Positions 2,847 to 11,949 of a stretch of DNA of 64,000 bases are shown here, piece after piece (the first letter of the stretch is position 1; each line of letters begins with the position of its first letter). The DNA comes from Ferruginibacter sp. (GTDB lineage Bacteria > Bacteroidota > Bacteroidia > Chitinophagales > Chitinophagaceae), in contig JABFQZ010000011.1 in assembly GCA_013141435.1 (NCBI GenBank), positions 103,230-167,229 on the forward strand. The letters are read 5' to 3'. Under the pieces are notes generated by a model. The model did no database searches, was not told the origin of the DNA, and saw only the letters and a list, made by a program, of their open reading frames with translations. Position numbers and translations under genes: made by a program.

Positions 2847-3293
2847 ATGCAGGTAATATTAATACAAGATGTAAACAACCTTGGCGGATCTAACGAATTA
2901 GTAGAAGTAAAAAACGGTTATGGCCGCAATTTTCTTATACCCAAAAAATTAGCTGTAGAGGCAAGCCCTAGCAATTTAAAACAAATGCAAGAAAAAGTAA
3001 AACATCTTGCTAAAAAAGAAGCTAAATTATTGGCTGAATTAAATAGTGTAATAGCTGTTTTAAAAGATGGTGCTTTAAAAATTGGTGCTAAAACAGGTAC
3101 TACTGGCAAAATATTTGGTAGTGTTACAACTGTTCAAATAGCAAGAGCTATAAAAGAGCAAAAAGGCTACGAAATAGATCGTCGTCGTATTACTTTAGTA
3201 GATGAAATAAAAGAATTAGGTACTTACAAAGCAAACATTGATTTTGGTAACGGTAACGAAACCGAAGTTGAATTTGAAGTTGTAGCTGAATAA
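2847..3293 (+). CDS. rplI: 50S ribosomal protein bL9
   Basis: A 148-residue bL9. The N-terminal domain 'MQVILIQDVNNLGGSNELVEVKNGYGRNFLIPK' region (1-33) is near the family consensus, followed by the long connecting helix (about 45-75) and the C-terminal domain with 'GKIFGSVTTVQIARAI'. It binds 23S rRNA near the L1 stalk. It ends just before a strong terminator at 3308-3344, which closes the ribosomal cluster. Confidence 0.97.
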   Translation: MQVILIQDVNNLGGSNELVEVKNGYGRNFLIPKKLAVEASPSNLKQMQEKVKHLAKKEAKLLAELNSVIAVLKDGALKIGAKTGTTGKIFGSVTTVQIARAIKEQKGYEIDRRRITLVDEIKELGTYKANIDFGNGNETEVEFEVVAE

Positions 3294-5697: not shown

Positions 5698-7665
5698 ATG
5701 AAGAAAAATTATCTACCCCTAATTGCATTAATGATGTGTGTGCAATTAATTTATGGGCAGTCAACTACAACATCATCTACTAGCCAAACTTTTATACCAA
5801 AAAGTTACATTGGTATGCGTGGCGGCTATTTGCTTAAAAGTAAATATGCCAATACCAACCCTATGTGGTATTTAAAAGATGGCAAGTTTATTGAATTAAA
5901 TTTTGGCACAAGAGGCAATAATGGTGTATTTGGCTTTGGTGGTGCTTTAGGTTATTTAAACATTGCAAGAGATGCATCAAAATGGCAATCGGGCACTCTA
6001 AATCGAAAAATGATTTACGATAGTATTACTGGTGGTACACACCCTATAATTACTTCTGGGCTAGATGATAAATCGATAACATTTAGCAAACAAAACATTA
6101 CAGACGAATACCATAAAAACTTTAGAGGTGTATATTTATTAGCTGGTCCCGAAATTTGGTTAGGTAGTAAAGCTTTTAAAGTAAATGCTTATTTGCAAGC
6201 TGGTATTAGCTATAATAAAGTAGGGTATTATTATATAGCGGGCAATAAAACTATAGCTGACCCAGCTACTGTAATATTAACAGGCCCATTTGGGGCTGGT
6301 ACTCGTAATTATATAATGAAAGGAGATGCTGTTTTTGAACAATTTGGCATGTCCAATAAATATTTTAGTAAAATAGCTATGGTAGGTACTCCTGCAGCTG
6401 CATTTGCAATAAAAGAAGATGGACAGCTTAGTTTTTTGGCAAAGGCAGGTGTTAGTGCCGAGTATTTTGTATCGCCAAAAATATCGATACATGCTGGCGC
6501 AAGCTATTGGTATATTGCTGTGCCAAAAATGGAAGGTGCACAATATGCAAGTGGACAAGTTAGCTATTTTACAAATCCTGGAAACGTAAATACCAATAAT
6601 CAACTATTCGATTATCAAGACCCATACAAAACCAAAAACCTGGGCTATATAAGTGCCAATGTAGGTGTAAAATATTGGATAGGTGGCTCACATAAAACAA
6701 AAGCGCCAAAAACTGTACGTACTAAAAAAACTAAATGCTGTAGTACCTGCCCAGTATATGCTTTGGGCGTAACAGCTAGAGACAAATACACAAAAGAAAT
6801 ATTGCCTAACACAGATGTTGTTATAAAAAACAATGCTGGCGAAATTATTAAAACAGGTAAAACAAATTCGTTTGGAGTATTTGTATTTGAAAAAATTGTA
6901 GCCGGTGATTATACCATATCTGGCTTGTTAAATAATGTAGCTTTAGAAAACAGCAATATAAAAGAAAGCGAACTAATATGCGATCAAGTAATACAAAAAG
7001 AAATTATTTATGCCGACAGAAATTTTATTGTAAAAGGAAGAGCATTTGAGTGTAATAGTACTACACCTATATCTGGCATAAATGTAGTTTTAGAAAATAT
7101 CGATCTTGCTTTCAAAAAATCTACTATGACAGATGCCGATGGAAATTTTATGTTGCAATTGCCAGAAGCAGGAATTTTTTACTTGTATGGCCGCAAAGAA
7201 AACTTTTTATCGCAAACAGAAGAAGTAACATCAGATAATTATAACAGAGATAAAAACTTATTTGTAAAATTAGAAATATGTGCCGAAAAAGTGGATTGTG
7301 GTAAAGCAATAAATCTTAAAAACATATTGTTTGATTTAGATAAATATGCCATAAAAGCCGAAGCTAAAAAAGAATTAAATAGACTTGTACGCTTTATGCA
7401 AGATAACCCAAGTGTAAAAGTAGAAGTAGGCTCACATACTGATTGTAGAAATACCGATTCTTACAACCAAACATTATCAGAAAACAGAGCTAAAGCCTCA
7501 GTAGATTATGTTGTAAGCCAAGGAATAGCAAGCAACCGTATTACAGGTAAAGGTTATGGCGAAACACAATTGCTAAACAAATGTGCCGATGGTGTAAGCT
7601 GCTCAGAAGCGGAACACTCCATAAATAGAAGAACAGAAATGAAAGTTATTTGCCCAGGTAAATAA
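5698..7665 (+). CDS. OmpA-family outer membrane protein with two carboxypeptidase-like repeats
   Basis: A 655-residue protein with a signal peptide ending about residue 20 ('LIYGQ'). The N-terminal half (about 25-330) alternates aromatic strands and Gly, as in an outer-membrane barrel. A Lys/Cys linker ('KTKCCSTCP') follows, then two CarboxypepD_reg-like modules (about 350-425 and 450-525) with 'GVFVFEKIVAGDYTI' and 'DADGNFMLQLP'. The C-terminal OmpA domain (about 540-655) has 'KNILFDLDKYAIK', 'VEVGSHTDCRN', 'NRAKASVDYVVSQG' and 'RRTEMKV', and should hold peptidoglycan. The next gene is a paralogue of the same build. It probably links the outer membrane to the wall; any additional role is unknown. 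Confidence 0.85.
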   Translation: MKKNYLPLIALMMCVQLIYGQSTTTSSTSQTFIPKSYIGMRGGYLLKSKYANTNPMWYLKDGKFIELNFGTRGNNGVFGFGGALGYLNIARDASKWQSGTLNRKMIYDSITGGTHPIITSGLDDKSITFSKQNITDEYHKNFRGVYLLAGPEIWLGSKAFKVNAYLQAGISYNKVGYYYIAGNKTIADPATVILTGPFGAGTRNYIMKGDAVFEQFGMSNKYFSKIAMVGTPAAAFAIKEDGQLSFLAKAGVSAEYFVSPKISIHAGASYWYIAVPKMEGAQYASGQVSYFTNPGNVNTNNQLFDYQDPYKTKNLGYISANVGVKYWIGGSHKTKAPKTVRTKKTKCCSTCPVYALGVTARDKYTKEILPNTDVVIKNNAGEIIKTGKTNSFGVFVFEKIVAGDYTISGLLNNVALENSNIKESELICDQVIQKEIIYADRNFIVKGRAFECNSTTPISGINVVLENIDLAFKKSTMTDADGNFMLQLPEAGIFYLYGRKENFLSQTEEVTSDNYNRDKNLFVKLEICAEKVDCGKAINLKNILFDLDKYAIKAEAKKELNRLVRFMQDNPSVKVEVGSHTDCRNTDSYNQTLSENRAKASVDYVVSQGIASNRITGKGYGETQLLNKCADGVSCSEAEHSINRRTEMKVICPGK

Positions 7666-7707: not shown

Positions 7708-7777
7708 CTTTAAAATTAAATCTTTTGTTTCGCTGTAATCTTTGTTTCGTGGTGTGAAACAAATTAAACTTATAAAA

Positions 7778-9520
7778 ATGAAAAAAATAAAATTAGTAAT
7801 TACAATATGCTTACTTGTTATTTTTTCGATACAAGTACAAGCTCAAATAAAATCAGAATTAGATAATGTTGTGAGCAAAAGTTATTTTCAAATAGCTCCA
7901 AGAGTAGGTGCTGACATACCAAATTTTAACAATAATACCCCATTTATAAAATACAAAACTGGCATCGATATTGGACTTTCGGCCGATTATTATTGGGGTG
8001 TAATAGGCTTAGGTGCAGATATAGATTATATAAAAAATAACACACAAAGCACTTTCCCTGCCACCAATTTAATAAATGCAGCCAGTGTACCACTTACCAG
8101 TTTTTCTATTGTAGAAAATCCAGTAACCAGATTATTTTATGGCATTGGCCCAAGTTTTAAATACCAAAGTAATACAGGCAAATTTACTGCTGAGCTAAAT
8201 ACAAGAGTTGGTTTTTCGTCTATAAAAGGTGGTAGAGTAGAACATAAAGAAACTACAACTTTACCACAAGAGTTATTAAATTTTCATGCAGGTTATAATT
8301 CAAAAAATGTATTGTCCTACAAAACACATATAAGAACAAGCTATTTTTTCAATAGCAATTTTGGTGTAAGTGTTGGTGCATATTATTTGGTACACAATAA
8401 AGTAAAAGAACTTGTAGATCCTGCATTAGGTTTTTCGGCAAAATATATTCCAATAAATACATCGGTTACACCAAATACATATAGTGGTGCACCTTATTAC
8501 CGAGTAGATCCTTGCAATTGTACAGTAACATCGGTAGGTGTATTTGCAGGTGTAATATTAAAACTTGGCAAAAAAAATAAAGATAAAGAAGAATGCTTAC
8601 CAGAGTATAGTTTGGCCGTAACAGCCAAAGATAAATATACAGGCGAGCTTTTATCAAATACCCAAGTAGTAGTAAAAAACAACACAGGAGATGTGGTACT
8701 TACGGGTATTACAAATACGTTTGGTGTAATAGTTTTCGAAAAAATATTGCCCGATGATTATACCATTGAGGGTACATTGGCTACAGTAGCCTTGGAAGGT
8801 AATAATGCTACAAAAACTGAGTTTTTGCTGAATAAAAATAAAGTAGTGCAAAAACTTATTGTGTATGGCAATAAAAATTTTATCATAAAAGGCAAAATTT
8901 TTGAATGCAACACTACCAAAACAATTGCTGGTATAACAGTAGTTTTAGAAAACAAGGAGCAAGCATTTATAAAAACAACTATTACCGATGCTAATGGAAA
9001 TTACTTACTACAATTACCTGCTGCTGGCAATTATATTTTGTATGGTAAAAAAGATAAATTCTTTTCGCAAATAGAAGAAATAACTGCATCAAATTACAAC
9101 AGAGATAAAAATTTATTTGTAAAGTTAGAAATGTGTGCAGAGCCAATAGATTGTGGTAAAGCAATAAACTTAAAAAATATTTTATTTGATTTAGATAAAT
9201 ATAATATTAAAGACGATGCTAAACCAGAGCTTAACAAACTTGTACAATTTATGCTAGATAACCCTAGTGTAAAAGTAGAAGTAGGTTCCCATACCGATTG
9301 CCGTAGCAGCACAGAGTATAACCAAACATTATCGCAAAATAGAGCAAATGCATCTGTAGATTATGTAGTAAGCCAAGGCATAGCAAGAGATAGAATATCG
9401 GGAAAAGGCTATGGCGAAAGTAAATTGCTTAACGAATGTGCCGATGGAGTAAACTGCACCGAAGCACAACACAGCATAAATAGAAGAACAGAAATGAAAG
9501 TAATTTGTAATAACCAATAA
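7778..9520 (+). CDS. OmpA-family outer membrane protein, paralogue of the preceding gene
   Basis: A 580-residue protein; the ATG at 7778 is preferred over an upstream in-frame TTG (7742) because it begins directly with a signal peptide ('MKKIKLVITICLL', cut about residue 22). The order is a barrel (about 30-265), two CarboxypepD_reg-like modules (about 280-450), and an OmpA domain with 'KNILFDLDKYNIK', 'VEVGSHTDCRS' and 'RRTEMKVICN'. The C-terminal 300 residues are very close to the upstream protein while the barrels differ strongly, which suggests a tandem duplication followed by divergence of the surface-facing part. A VWA lipoprotein follows 73 bp downstream. Confidence 0.85.
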   Translation: MKKIKLVITICLLVIFSIQVQAQIKSELDNVVSKSYFQIAPRVGADIPNFNNNTPFIKYKTGIDIGLSADYYWGVIGLGADIDYIKNNTQSTFPATNLINAASVPLTSFSIVENPVTRLFYGIGPSFKYQSNTGKFTAELNTRVGFSSIKGGRVEHKETTTLPQELLNFHAGYNSKNVLSYKTHIRTSYFFNSNFGVSVGAYYLVHNKVKELVDPALGFSAKYIPINTSVTPNTYSGAPYYRVDPCNCTVTSVGVFAGVILKLGKKNKDKEECLPEYSLAVTAKDKYTGELLSNTQVVVKNNTGDVVLTGITNTFGVIVFEKILPDDYTIEGTLATVALEGNNATKTEFLLNKNKVVQKLIVYGNKNFIIKGKIFECNTTKTIAGITVVLENKEQAFIKTTITDANGNYLLQLPAAGNYILYGKKDKFFSQIEEITASNYNRDKNLFVKLEMCAEPIDCGKAINLKNILFDLDKYNIKDDAKPELNKLVQFMLDNPSVKVEVGSHTDCRSSTEYNQTLSQNRANASVDYVVSQGIARDRISGKGYGESKLLNECADGVNCTEAQHSINRRTEMKVICNNQ

Positions 9521-10526: not shown

Positions 10527-10575
10527 TAACATCCTTGTAAATTTCAAATCATATTTGAAATTTACAAGGATGTTA
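10527..10575. repeat. 49-bp near-perfect palindrome upstream of the AAA ATPase
   Basis: Two 23-bp arms, 10527-10549 and 10553-10575, perfectly complementary around the 3-nt centre CAT. The arm begins TAACATCCTTGTAAATTTC. A similar palindrome lies directly after the ATPase gene (11766-11806). The -33 promoter box falls in the right arm. Confidence 0.92.
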
Positions 10576-10584
10576 GTATATTTG
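10554..10584 (+). promoter_or_regulatory. Promoter of the AAA ATPase, overlapping the palindrome
   Basis: TTTG (10554-10557), 19 bp, TATATTTG (10577-10584). The -33 box is inside the palindrome's right arm and the start codon is only 4 nt past the -7 box, so the transcript would have little or no leader. Confidence 0.75.
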
Positions 10585-10588
10585 CAAT

Positions 10589-11758
10589 ATGATAAAAAGA
10601 GCTTTGCAACCAACTATTGAAAAAGCATTGAAGGTTTTTCCTGCCATAGTAATTCTTGGCCCAAGGCAAGTAGGTAAAACTACATTAGTAAAATTGGTAG
10701 CTAAAAATAGGCTCAAAAAATCTGTGTATATAGACCTTGAAAAAAATAGCGACTTTGAGAAATTAAAATATACCGCAGAGGAATTTATGCAAAGTTATAT
10801 AAATGAATGTGTATTAATAGATGAAGTACAGCGAATACCTAGTTTATTTCCATTGCTTAGAGCCATGATAGACGAAAAAAGAAAACCTGCTCGATATATT
10901 ATTACTGGTTCGGCTTCGCCAGATTTATTAAAAGGTGCATCTGAAAGTTTAGCTGGTAGAGTAATATATTTTTATTTACACCCTATAGGGCTACATGAAT
11001 TACCTGCTAAAATAGGTGTAAACAAACATTGGTTTAGAGGAGGTTTTCCTCAAGCCTTAACAATACGCAATAGCAATATGTTAGCGGCTTGGTTAGATTC
11101 ATTCATAACTACTTACATCGAAAAGGATTTGCCATTATTATTTGATATTAAATTTTCGTCTATTACCATGCGTAAACTCTGGAGCATGTTAGCCCACTTG
11201 CAAGGTGGTATTTTAAATGCCGAAAAACTTGGTGCATCTTTAGATATAACTGGTACTACAACAAAGCGATATTTAGATTATTTAGAGGCAGCATTTATTA
11301 TAACAAGGTTAAAACCTTATTATGTAAACATTGGTAAGCGACTAGTAAAAGCACCTAAAGTTTATATAAACGATACAGGTATTTTACATTTTTTATTACG
11401 AGTGCAAAATGAAAAAGAATTAACAAGTCATCCATCGGTGGGATCTTCTTGGGAGGGATACGTAATTAGTCAAATATTATATGCAAAAGAAAATAGGTTA
11501 GATATGTATTACTATCGTACGCAAGCTGGCGCAGAATGCGACTTAGTACTTGTACGAGGGCATGTAGTAAAAGCATGCATAGAAATAAAATTTAGTAAAG
11601 CACCTATTATTAGTAAAGGATATTATCAGGCTGTAGAAGATTTAAAATGCAACACAAAATTTATAATATGCCCTGCTGATGTTAATTATATTACTAAAGG
11701 AGGAATAAGAGTAATAGGCATTAGTGAATTTTTAATTAAATATTTAATAAATATTTAA
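10589..11758 (+). CDS. AAA ATPase with C-terminal DUF4143 nuclease-like domain (COG1373 type)
   Basis: A 389-residue protein. The AAA_14 ATPase domain has Walker A 'GPRQVGKT' at 24-31, Walker B 'VLIDE' at 75-79 and a sensor strand 'YIITGSAS' at 103-110. A winged-helix-like segment follows ('GASLDITGTTTKRYLDYLE', about 214-232). The C-terminal DUF4143 part has a PD-(D/E)XK-like core with Glu316, Asp318 and 'EIK' at 332-334. All key residues are intact, so an active ATPase is likely and a nuclease possible. The biological role of the family is not established. The gene is bounded by two similar long palindromes and has no operon partner, so it may be a selfish or self-regulated unit. Confidence 0.88.
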   Translation: MIKRALQPTIEKALKVFPAIVILGPRQVGKTTLVKLVAKNRLKKSVYIDLEKNSDFEKLKYTAEEFMQSYINECVLIDEVQRIPSLFPLLRAMIDEKRKPARYIITGSASPDLLKGASESLAGRVIYFYLHPIGLHELPAKIGVNKHWFRGGFPQALTIRNSNMLAAWLDSFITTYIEKDLPLLFDIKFSSITMRKLWSMLAHLQGGILNAEKLGASLDITGTTTKRYLDYLEAAFIITRLKPYYVNIGKRLVKAPKVYINDTGILHFLLRVQNEKELTSHPSVGSSWEGYVISQILYAKENRLDMYYYRTQAGAECDLVLVRGHVVKACIEIKFSKAPIISKGYYQAVEDLKCNTKFIICPADVNYITKGGIRVIGISEFLIKYLINI

Positions 11759-11765
11759 TTAATAT

Positions 11766-11806
11766 ATCCTAGTAAATTTCAAATTAAATTTGATATTTAC
11801 TAGGAT
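11766..11806. repeat. 41-bp palindrome downstream of the AAA ATPase
   Basis: Arms 11766-11785 (ATCCTAGTAAATTTCAAATT) and 11787-11806 pair with one mismatch around a single base. The arm differs from that of the upstream palindrome (ATCCTTGTAAATTTCAAAT) at about one position, so both are copies of one motif. It begins 7 bp after the stop codon. Confidence 0.9.
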
Positions 11807-11949
11807 GTAAATTTGAATAAAATTAGCAAACTAAATATAAATATGTTTGCCACACTTTGATAAGTATGAGTAATTGTACCACAATAATTGCCATATAATT
11901 ATTCATACCATGTAATATTGTTACAACAGAAAATTGCTAACTTAGTTTG

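Follow-up and report, generated by a model that had tools for sequence, protein, structure and literature searches.

The closest described relatives of the locus considered here are the PDC-S01 genes of PADLOC, which are among the commonest candidate systems in bacteria and archaea, with counts of 29,494 and 9,986 in one survey that presents them as not validated (PMC12988326), and which are also treated elsewhere as a candidate defence gene (PMC13356809). Our subject is one such gene, encoding an AAA_14 ATPase joined to a DUF4143 domain and lying between two long palindromes in a 64,000-nucleotide stretch (hereafter the window) of a Ferruginibacter sp. genome (Chitinophagaceae; contig JABFQZ010000011.1, positions 103,230 to 167,229). 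The window protein shares with the published description of PDC-S01 an ATPase fused to a PD-(D/E)XK-type domain (PMC12988326). What the passages on PDC-S01 in these publications provide is its abundance, distribution and domain make-up (PMC12988326, PMC13356809), and a term search of the main text of the survey found palindrome, inverted repeat, operator and autoregulation unmentioned. COG1373 is also one of the entries in a published table of genes that gut genera have in common (PMC10782964), and the passages on IniR, with its SSO1545-like ATPase domain, mention no palindrome (PMC5760070). Literature searches on the family names, some of them combined with operator or palindrome terms, listed no palindrome, operator, base-reading code or DNA target for the DUF4143 family.

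In a structure comparison of the AlphaFold2 (AF2) model of the window protein (mean predicted local distance difference test score, pLDDT, 90.7), the ATPase and winged-helix part resembled the archaeal ATPases SSO1545 (2fna) and PABY2304 (2qen) and, less specifically, STAND NTPases such as plant NLRs, CED-4 and bacterial AVAST5. The two archaeal proteins differ from the window protein in that they are 18% identical to it and the aligned range stops before the nuclease part; what sets the window protein apart from the STAND NTPases is the nuclease-like domain at its end. Other AAA+ proteins scored about as high as the STAND NTPases, and the shared fold shows no function. No nuclease-fold structural match was returned, which is uninformative since model residues beyond ~300 were barely covered. 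Among systems with comparable DNA sites, toxin-antitoxin operons are autoregulated promoter/operator genes and share with the predicted arrangement of the window gene a promoter overlapped by a palindrome to which the encoded protein likely binds. They differ from it in that the window holds a single gene with a very long two-part site and a nuclease domain among the predicted readers, and in that part of the DUF4143 family has a second matched copy past the stop codon. IS200/IS605 elements and REP (repetitive extragenic palindromic)-associated transposases are elements with palindromic ends, and they too place a gene between hairpin-forming ends; unlike IS200/IS605, the window protein is an ATPase-nuclease, and its gene is bounded by long dyads whose predicted recognition is in double-stranded form.

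We propose, with a probability of roughly 60%, that the window gene is enclosed by two 37-bp palindromes which its own protein would bind as a symmetric dimer, likely repressing itself. The coordinates are collected in Table 1. As the initial annotation had it, the upstream palindrome has perfect 23-nt arms, although the gap between it and the ATG is 13 nt and not 14 bp; the downstream palindrome is present, with its conserved core beginning 7 nt past the stop codon, but its arms are imperfect. Aligned in direct register, the two copies are indeed near-identical (88% over 43 nt). When up to 2 mismatches are allowed, the window contains 11 occurrences of the arm TTGTAAATTTCAAAT, four of which the two palindromes themselves supply; shuffled windows averaged 3.1, and none of 100 reached 11.

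Table 1. Features of the palindrome-flanked gene, in window coordinates.
Feature	Position	Strand	Basis
Upstream palindrome, 23/23 complementary arms, 3-nt loop	10527-10575	.	Repeat finder
Upstream 37-bp core of two half-sites	10533-10569	.	Dyad-model site G000:C28:113762-113798
TTTG, -33-like promoter element, in right palindrome arm	10554-10557	+	Sequence
TATATTTG, -7-like promoter element (TAnnTTTG), 19 nt past TTTG	10577-10584	+	Sequence
AAA_14-DUF4143 gene (COG1373-like, PADLOC PDC-S01), 389 aa	10589-11758	+	Pfam, PADLOC, AF2 model
Codons of residues 222-223, start of predicted recognition helix (222-234 in model)	11252-11257	+	Covariation; predicted reader of half-site bases 12-13
Residue 313 codon (Ala), in the loop preceding catalytic E316 and D318	11525-11527	+	Covariation, held-out check; predicted reader of half-site base 3 (T)
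Downstream palindrome, arms 91% complementary over 23 nt	11763-11809	.	Repeat finder
Downstream second copy, conserved core in direct register	11766-11808	.	Repeat finder
Downstream 37-bp core	11768-11804	.	Dyad-model site G000:C28:114997-115033

The upstream palindrome is a family-wide element with a fixed 37-bp geometry and maintained dyad symmetry. A half-site model, with spans of 28-48 bp allowed, was refined on 80 loci of many phyla plus 29 hand-picked loci, many of which were already known to have palindromes; this 109-locus set excludes duplicates of a single place, incomplete genes, matches that were weak or distant, and L042, which nearly duplicates L036. The element consists of two half-sites, CC(T/A)TGnAA(A/T)T, near or over the start codon and the predicted promoter. 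It scored at least 6 in 103 of 109 loci (six scored under 6), with a span of exactly 37 bp in 84 of the 103 scoring loci and 38 bp in 7; the 80 multi-phylum loci alone gave 77 scoring loci, with 64 spans of 37 bp and 7 of 38 bp. Upstream regions exceeded 99.9% of 3042 control windows in 85 of 108 cases, and in 65 of 79 when the same test was confined to the 80-locus set. Relative to the start codon, the right end of the element favours a few positions (about -21, -4, -1, +3 and +7), and homologues on alpha- and gammaproteobacterial plasmids have a related interrupted palindrome touching the start codon. The two half-sites change together: base 3 is paired in 93% of 91 elements (43% expected), and in the 49 more symmetric elements 89.3% of cells are paired vs. 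69.8% in shuffles, with a covariation score of 0.506 vs. 0.145 in shuffles and at most 0.088 when slid. In this symmetric subset both sides had changed in 153 cells and one side (G-U type) in 18, a two-sided pattern that fits double-stranded DNA better than an RNA hairpin.

The strongest evidence for our proposal is covariation between protein and site, from which we conclude that the protein very probably binds its own palindrome. The loci of the covariation set were selected for carrying an element and numbered 141, or 130 once near-identical proteins were removed, of which 95 belong to the main subfamily; the two arms of one locus are not independent in the arm counts. At residue 313, Asn or Gln occurs with A at half-site base 3 in 30 of 30 arms, Asp or Glu with C in 24 of 26, His with G in 4 of 4 and Ala with T in 64 of 68, and with close relatives left out this residue ranked first among 369 protein columns for base 3. 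Residue 223 tracks base 13 and, less surely, residue 222 tracks base 12. For a held-out check 26 loci were processed, leaving 20 loci and 40 arms after exclusion of three without an element (L433, L439, L172), one repeating a training locus (L182) and the redundancy among L435, L436 and L440, which are one sequence; at the element-less loci the rule was wrong at chance sites of L439 and L172 and gave no prediction for L433. Without L448, L250, L252 and L253, which are 88-99% identical to a training protein, 28 of 32 arms were predicted correctly. Held-out loci for which a base other than T was predicted share 48-67% identity with the closest protein of the training set. Since the covarying residues lie in the nuclease loop and the predicted recognition helix, the reader of the palindrome is very probably this protein itself.

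Autorepression is the likely consequence of such binding, judging from where the element sits. In the window, TTTG in the right arm and TATATTTG 19 nt further on correspond to what we take to be the Bacteroidota promoter consensus (TTTG and TAnnTTTG), so transcription is predicted to begin at or near the ATG. For a wider view we used the first 100 listed DUF4143 matches of the order, unselected for palindromes, of which 96 loci were usable (the other 4 lacked the ATP-loop, had an open frame or offered too short a flank). The 30 nt preceding the start contain TAnnTTTG in 53 of these 96 genes, 18 of them exactly at -12, compared with 14 of 951 control windows further upstream. Among the 41 loci whose element ends at -2 to 0, 15 have a sigma-70-like pair (e.g., TTGCAA-N17-CATAAT) just upstream of the start; such pairs occur at 19 of all 92 loci vs. 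9 of 4916 control windows and mostly begin at -35 or -36, inside the palindrome. As expected of an operator, a conserved palindrome lies over the gene's own promoter, the latter assigned by consensus only, and with the promoter covered in this way the simplest expectation is that the gene is repressed.

The second copy past the stop codon is found in part of the family. In 23 of the 96 genes a downstream repeat matched the gene's own upstream repeat beyond the 99.5th percentile of swapped-locus comparisons, where ~0.5 would be expected; the maximum of the swapped-locus null, 0.92, came from related loci. The repeat sequence differs by subfamily (CCTTGnAAAT, TGGACAAAT, TTTTACAAAT and CCCCG) and matches within the locus. 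The best register in the 23 bracketed loci was direct in 15, inverted in 5 and tied in 3, with a margin that was often 1-3 of 41 positions. In some loci both copies have asymmetric bases in common, and in L325 they are identical over 41 nt; such shared bases point to copying between the two sites, not to independent convergence. Within the 109-locus set a clear downstream copy occurred at 6 of 108 loci, five of them in the order of the window and the sixth being L086, a Chitinophagaceae locus identical over 6 kb to L205 of G119 (own order). The 80-locus set, mostly from outside this order, has a strong downstream copy only in L086. At four of the 23 bracketed loci (L334, L343, L256, L295) the matched repeats are not simple palindromes, and those of L334 are iteron-like.

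Taken together as a mechanism, a symmetric dimer would sit on the palindrome with one protomer per half, the active-site-adjacent loop of each protomer reading the outer half-site and its winged helix the inner one. Occupation of the upstream copy, over the predicted promoter, would switch the gene off, and repression might be lifted when the ATP/ADP state or an incoming nucleic acid alters the oligomer. The downstream copy would be a second cognate site, through which palindrome, gene and palindrome may together be acquired, lost or duplicated; recombination of one copy with the other may occasionally leave just a single palindrome behind.

The palindromes belong with DUF4143 genes, as had been supposed. 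Across the 149 genomes searched within the order, CCTTGNAAAT-N(4-30)-ATTTNCAAGG as an exact pattern turned up just 12 times (reversed control, 0); five have the 37-nt geometry and each abuts a DUF4143 gene, and the remaining seven (five of 25 nt, one of 31 and one of 40) are not beside one. A 37-nt dyad covariance model, whose training set includes both window palindromes, was therefore used in place of this first broad pattern, whose seven hits away from DUF4143 genes, mostly short hairpins, had made it unsuitable for finding solo repeats. This model found 57 separate sites in the 149 genomes at an expectation value (E) of at most 0.01, of which 40 lie within 1.5 kb of a DUF4143 match among the matches listed and one more lies at a truncated DUF4143 gene. 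Palindromes without a linked DUF4143 gene, which the initial annotation had named as counting against it if widespread, are a minority: none was found near 16 of the 57 sites (12 inspected in fetched stretches, 4 by the listed matches), and at E of at most 1e-4 there were 28 sites near DUF4143 and 6 of 34 for which none was found. That the repeats are dispersed and flank the gene by chance is scarcely credible: the 16 unlinked sites fit it, but 40 of 57 sites fall by listed DUF4143 matches although such regions are a tiny part of the 149 genomes, and both the own-versus-swapped control and the recognition code disfavour it. Some of the unlinked model sites, L206 and L216 among them, lie between convergent genes. 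Strong lone 37-nt palindromes, with no DUF4143 gene in the stretch fetched, occur in L201, L206, L210, L216 and L220, several at 3' ends or between convergent genes, and G103 has two lone palindromes of one class.

Comparisons of relatives, in which gene names are our own readings of the proteins, showed the palindrome-gene-palindrome arrangement to be present at some sites and absent from the corresponding sites of other genomes. In G053 it lies between cysK-like and cystathionine-synthase-like genes; G101 and G066, with aligned flanks 87-91% identical to G053, lack the gene and have in its place a terminator-like hairpin that shares the outer CAACCTTG arm (detected by the scan in L057, by eye in L058). 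In G132 one unit follows a murA-like gene; the 330 bp after that gene contain no palindrome of score 11 in six relatives (L222-L227), and L224 and L227, which keep the next gene, have no DUF4143 gene at the junction. A further unit, 69% identical between G132 and G150, lies upstream of a TetR-like gene, and at this site the flanks adjoin in G144, G163, G167, G160, G208 and G209, with no palindrome between them. In G050 the site is occupied by a lone palindrome that is identical to the downstream copy of G150 at 32 of 37 positions, compared with 16-19 of 37 at eleven other loci without the unit. This is best read as a remnant of a unit whose gene was lost when its two copies recombined, but a unit inserted next to a palindrome already in place may also account for it. 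This presence and absence partly supports the idea of a self-contained unit, but the boundary does not lie exactly at the palindromes: at the TetR site of G132 they are followed on their outer sides by 88 and 130 bp of other sequence.

Other sites were less informative. No empty counterpart of the window's own site was found among 59 genomes of the genus, the upstream flank giving only short matches outside its own genome; the G103 flank matched 3 of 8 genomes including G103 itself, which is uninformative; the L214 flank found best matches outside G050 that were mostly 65-72% identical within its genus; and the lone palindrome of G087 has no counterpart in G050 and cannot be polarised. Thermus plasmids, whose match limits suggested a clean 1.35-kb unit, were rejected as an example since those limits coincide with insertion sequence (IS) elements in L246. 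Among Rhizobium plasmids, homology of L043 starts at the left edge of the palindrome against L253 and L040 and 39-47 bp earlier against L250 and L252; we discounted this edge as a unit boundary, since at 70-83% identity it is explicable by selection alone. None of seven pairs of loci compared yielded near-identical copies bounded by palindromes in different places: L016 and L018 also have 150 bp upstream and 101 bp downstream in common, and L346 and L352 share only the gene region, at 72% DNA identity. L016 and L018, from two species of the window's genus, carry a 95% identical, 1409-bp unit with the DUF4143 gene in different surroundings, with a short repeated flank common to both; a tRNA-Arg gene lies just upstream in L016 and none was found in L018. 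Several plasmids (L036-L043, L442, L444, L447, L448) have the gene near replication, ParA, recombinase or integrase genes. Short stretches of L254 (~3000-3112) match dozens of places in genomes of that genus, as a dispersed repeat family. Viral contigs with a family member numbered 8 when searched with the alignment and none when searched with the window protein alone.

What the protein does beyond binding bears on the alternatives. The 389-aa protein matches PF13173 (AAA_14; E 2.8e-29, 102.2 bits, curated cut-off 27), PF13635 (DUF4143; E 1.6e-39, 135.6 bits, curated cut-off 28.1) and seven PADLOC models of PDC-S01 (best E 1.4e-87), and presumably corresponds to COG1373; in NCBIfam neither it nor L040 had a match. 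Its frame is the only one of at least 70 aa between the window palindromes, so that no second gene of this size, as in a two-gene toxin-antitoxin system, lies there, and its Pfam matches include no transposase (HUH/Y1 included). Across the 130 loci, K30, D78, E289, E316 and K334 are present in all 130, D318 in 127 and E332 in 129; the comparison also took in 13 hand-picked bracketed loci. The conserved acidic and lysine core residues of a PD-(D/E)XK domain are thus found across these loci, if residues are assigned to that motif as we take them to be, and the near-invariance of Walker and catalytic residues suggests that the nuclease remains active and might cut the palindrome or act on a second target.

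The gene might also be a self-targeting cassette of a new class, whose sequence-specific, ATP-driven nuclease would read the 37-bp palindromes at its ends through a simple residue-to-base code in the active-site loop and winged helix, would repress its own gene and cut there, and would let the gene spread, home or excise and leave lone palindromes behind; we consider this doubtful. Equally tentative is a homing or transposon-like cassette that moves itself, the nuclease cutting the two palindromes and the ATPase driving excision and insertion, with autoregulation as a by-product. The matched ends of 23 of 96 loci, the prevalence of the direct register among them, the asymmetric bases that some copies have in common, the absence of gene and both palindromes from orthologous sites, the near-invariant catalytic residues and the placement of base-reading residue 313 beside the active site are all in keeping with self-movement. 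Against this, none of the insertion boundaries coincides cleanly with the two palindromes, a target-site duplication was not noticed (no tool search was aimed at one), and just one member of the 80-locus set has a strong downstream copy, compared with 65 of 79 for the upstream one. Moreover, the near-identical copies beside tRNA-Arg (L016) and shared sequence, or beside plasmid recombinase genes, suggest carriage by others, and one bracketed gene, L204, outside the 130-locus set, has lost the residue that aligns with E316. The initial annotation had offered a self-contained unit and an autoregulated gene side by side, and each is partly supported, the covariation and the covered predicted promoter speaking for a gene that reads its own site.

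An anti-phage defence gene of the PDC-S01 type, its expression kept low by the operator, its nuclease acting on invader DNA that bears similar sites or on DNA generally and its palindromes serving control only, is improbable. The PADLOC matches and the standing of PDC-S01 as a very common candidate speak for it, and the Thermus relative TT_P0211 is among the genes with altered expression when a plasmid is present, by 6.6-fold (PMC4406477), one data point that fits inducible control. Defence leaves unexplained, however, why a downstream copy should be matched to each gene. A defence role is compatible with binding and repression by the gene's own protein and does not exclude it.

The palindromes might also be RNA hairpins, a leader structure upstream and a terminator downstream, and several downstream copies are indeed followed by T-rich sequence (L254, L324), and the order does contain the mostly short hairpins away from DUF4143 genes noted above. 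We regard this as very improbable, as the window's upstream palindrome precedes the predicted transcription start and would be untranscribed, residue-base covariation and a fixed 37-bp span are unexpected of hairpins, the two-sided changes far outnumber the one-sided G-U type, and two independent hairpins need not match locus by locus.

Several observations also weigh against our proposal of a gene bound and repressed by its own protein at two palindromes. A matched downstream copy is missing from 73 of the 96 genes of the order, and a second copy is therefore not generally needed; the G053 site is not cleanly empty in the gene-less relatives, which have the terminator-like hairpin. The recognition code is incomplete, Gly313 occurring with A in 12 arms, T in 7 and G in 1; on the tree, residue 222 comes no higher than 4th for base 12, and two pairs with good mutual information, 312/base 6 and 212/base 11, failed the tree test (ranks 320 and 219) and were rejected. 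The winged-helix and nuclease assignments of the window protein are predicted from the model, and catalytic residues that almost never change would be unneeded by a pure repressor.

Elsewhere in the genome of the window (G000, 3.06 Mb) there are five DUF4143 matches, a second of which (G000:C34) is also bracketed, by a different palindrome. Another DUF4143 subfamily, represented by L002 of the same genome and L017 of the same genus, has tandem interleaved upstream palindromes of the ATTCC...GGAAT type and no single 37-bp site. In the window itself a perfect AT-only palindrome with 15-nt arms (TTAATTAAATATTTA and its complement) at 11732-11762 overlaps the last codons and the stop, just before the downstream palindrome. 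Upstream of the locus, tandem OmpA-like genes at 5698-7665 and 7742-9520 resemble paralogues (by our own reading of their C-terminal ends), and part of the query 8800-10520 matches its own contig again, at 76% identity over ~670 bp.

What is new in this analysis is a family-wide 37-bp site with a predicted residue-to-base code that includes the nuclease domain, in a family already listed as PDC-S01. The fixed site and its code make a ready substrate for binding, cleavage and structural work on DUF4143 proteins, and the code offers a way to predict targets from sequence. These findings raise the question of whether PDC-S01 genes are defence genes, selfish genes or both. If the self-targeting cassette were true, one of the commonest unvalidated “defence” families would be a self-recognising selfish element with a readable specificity.
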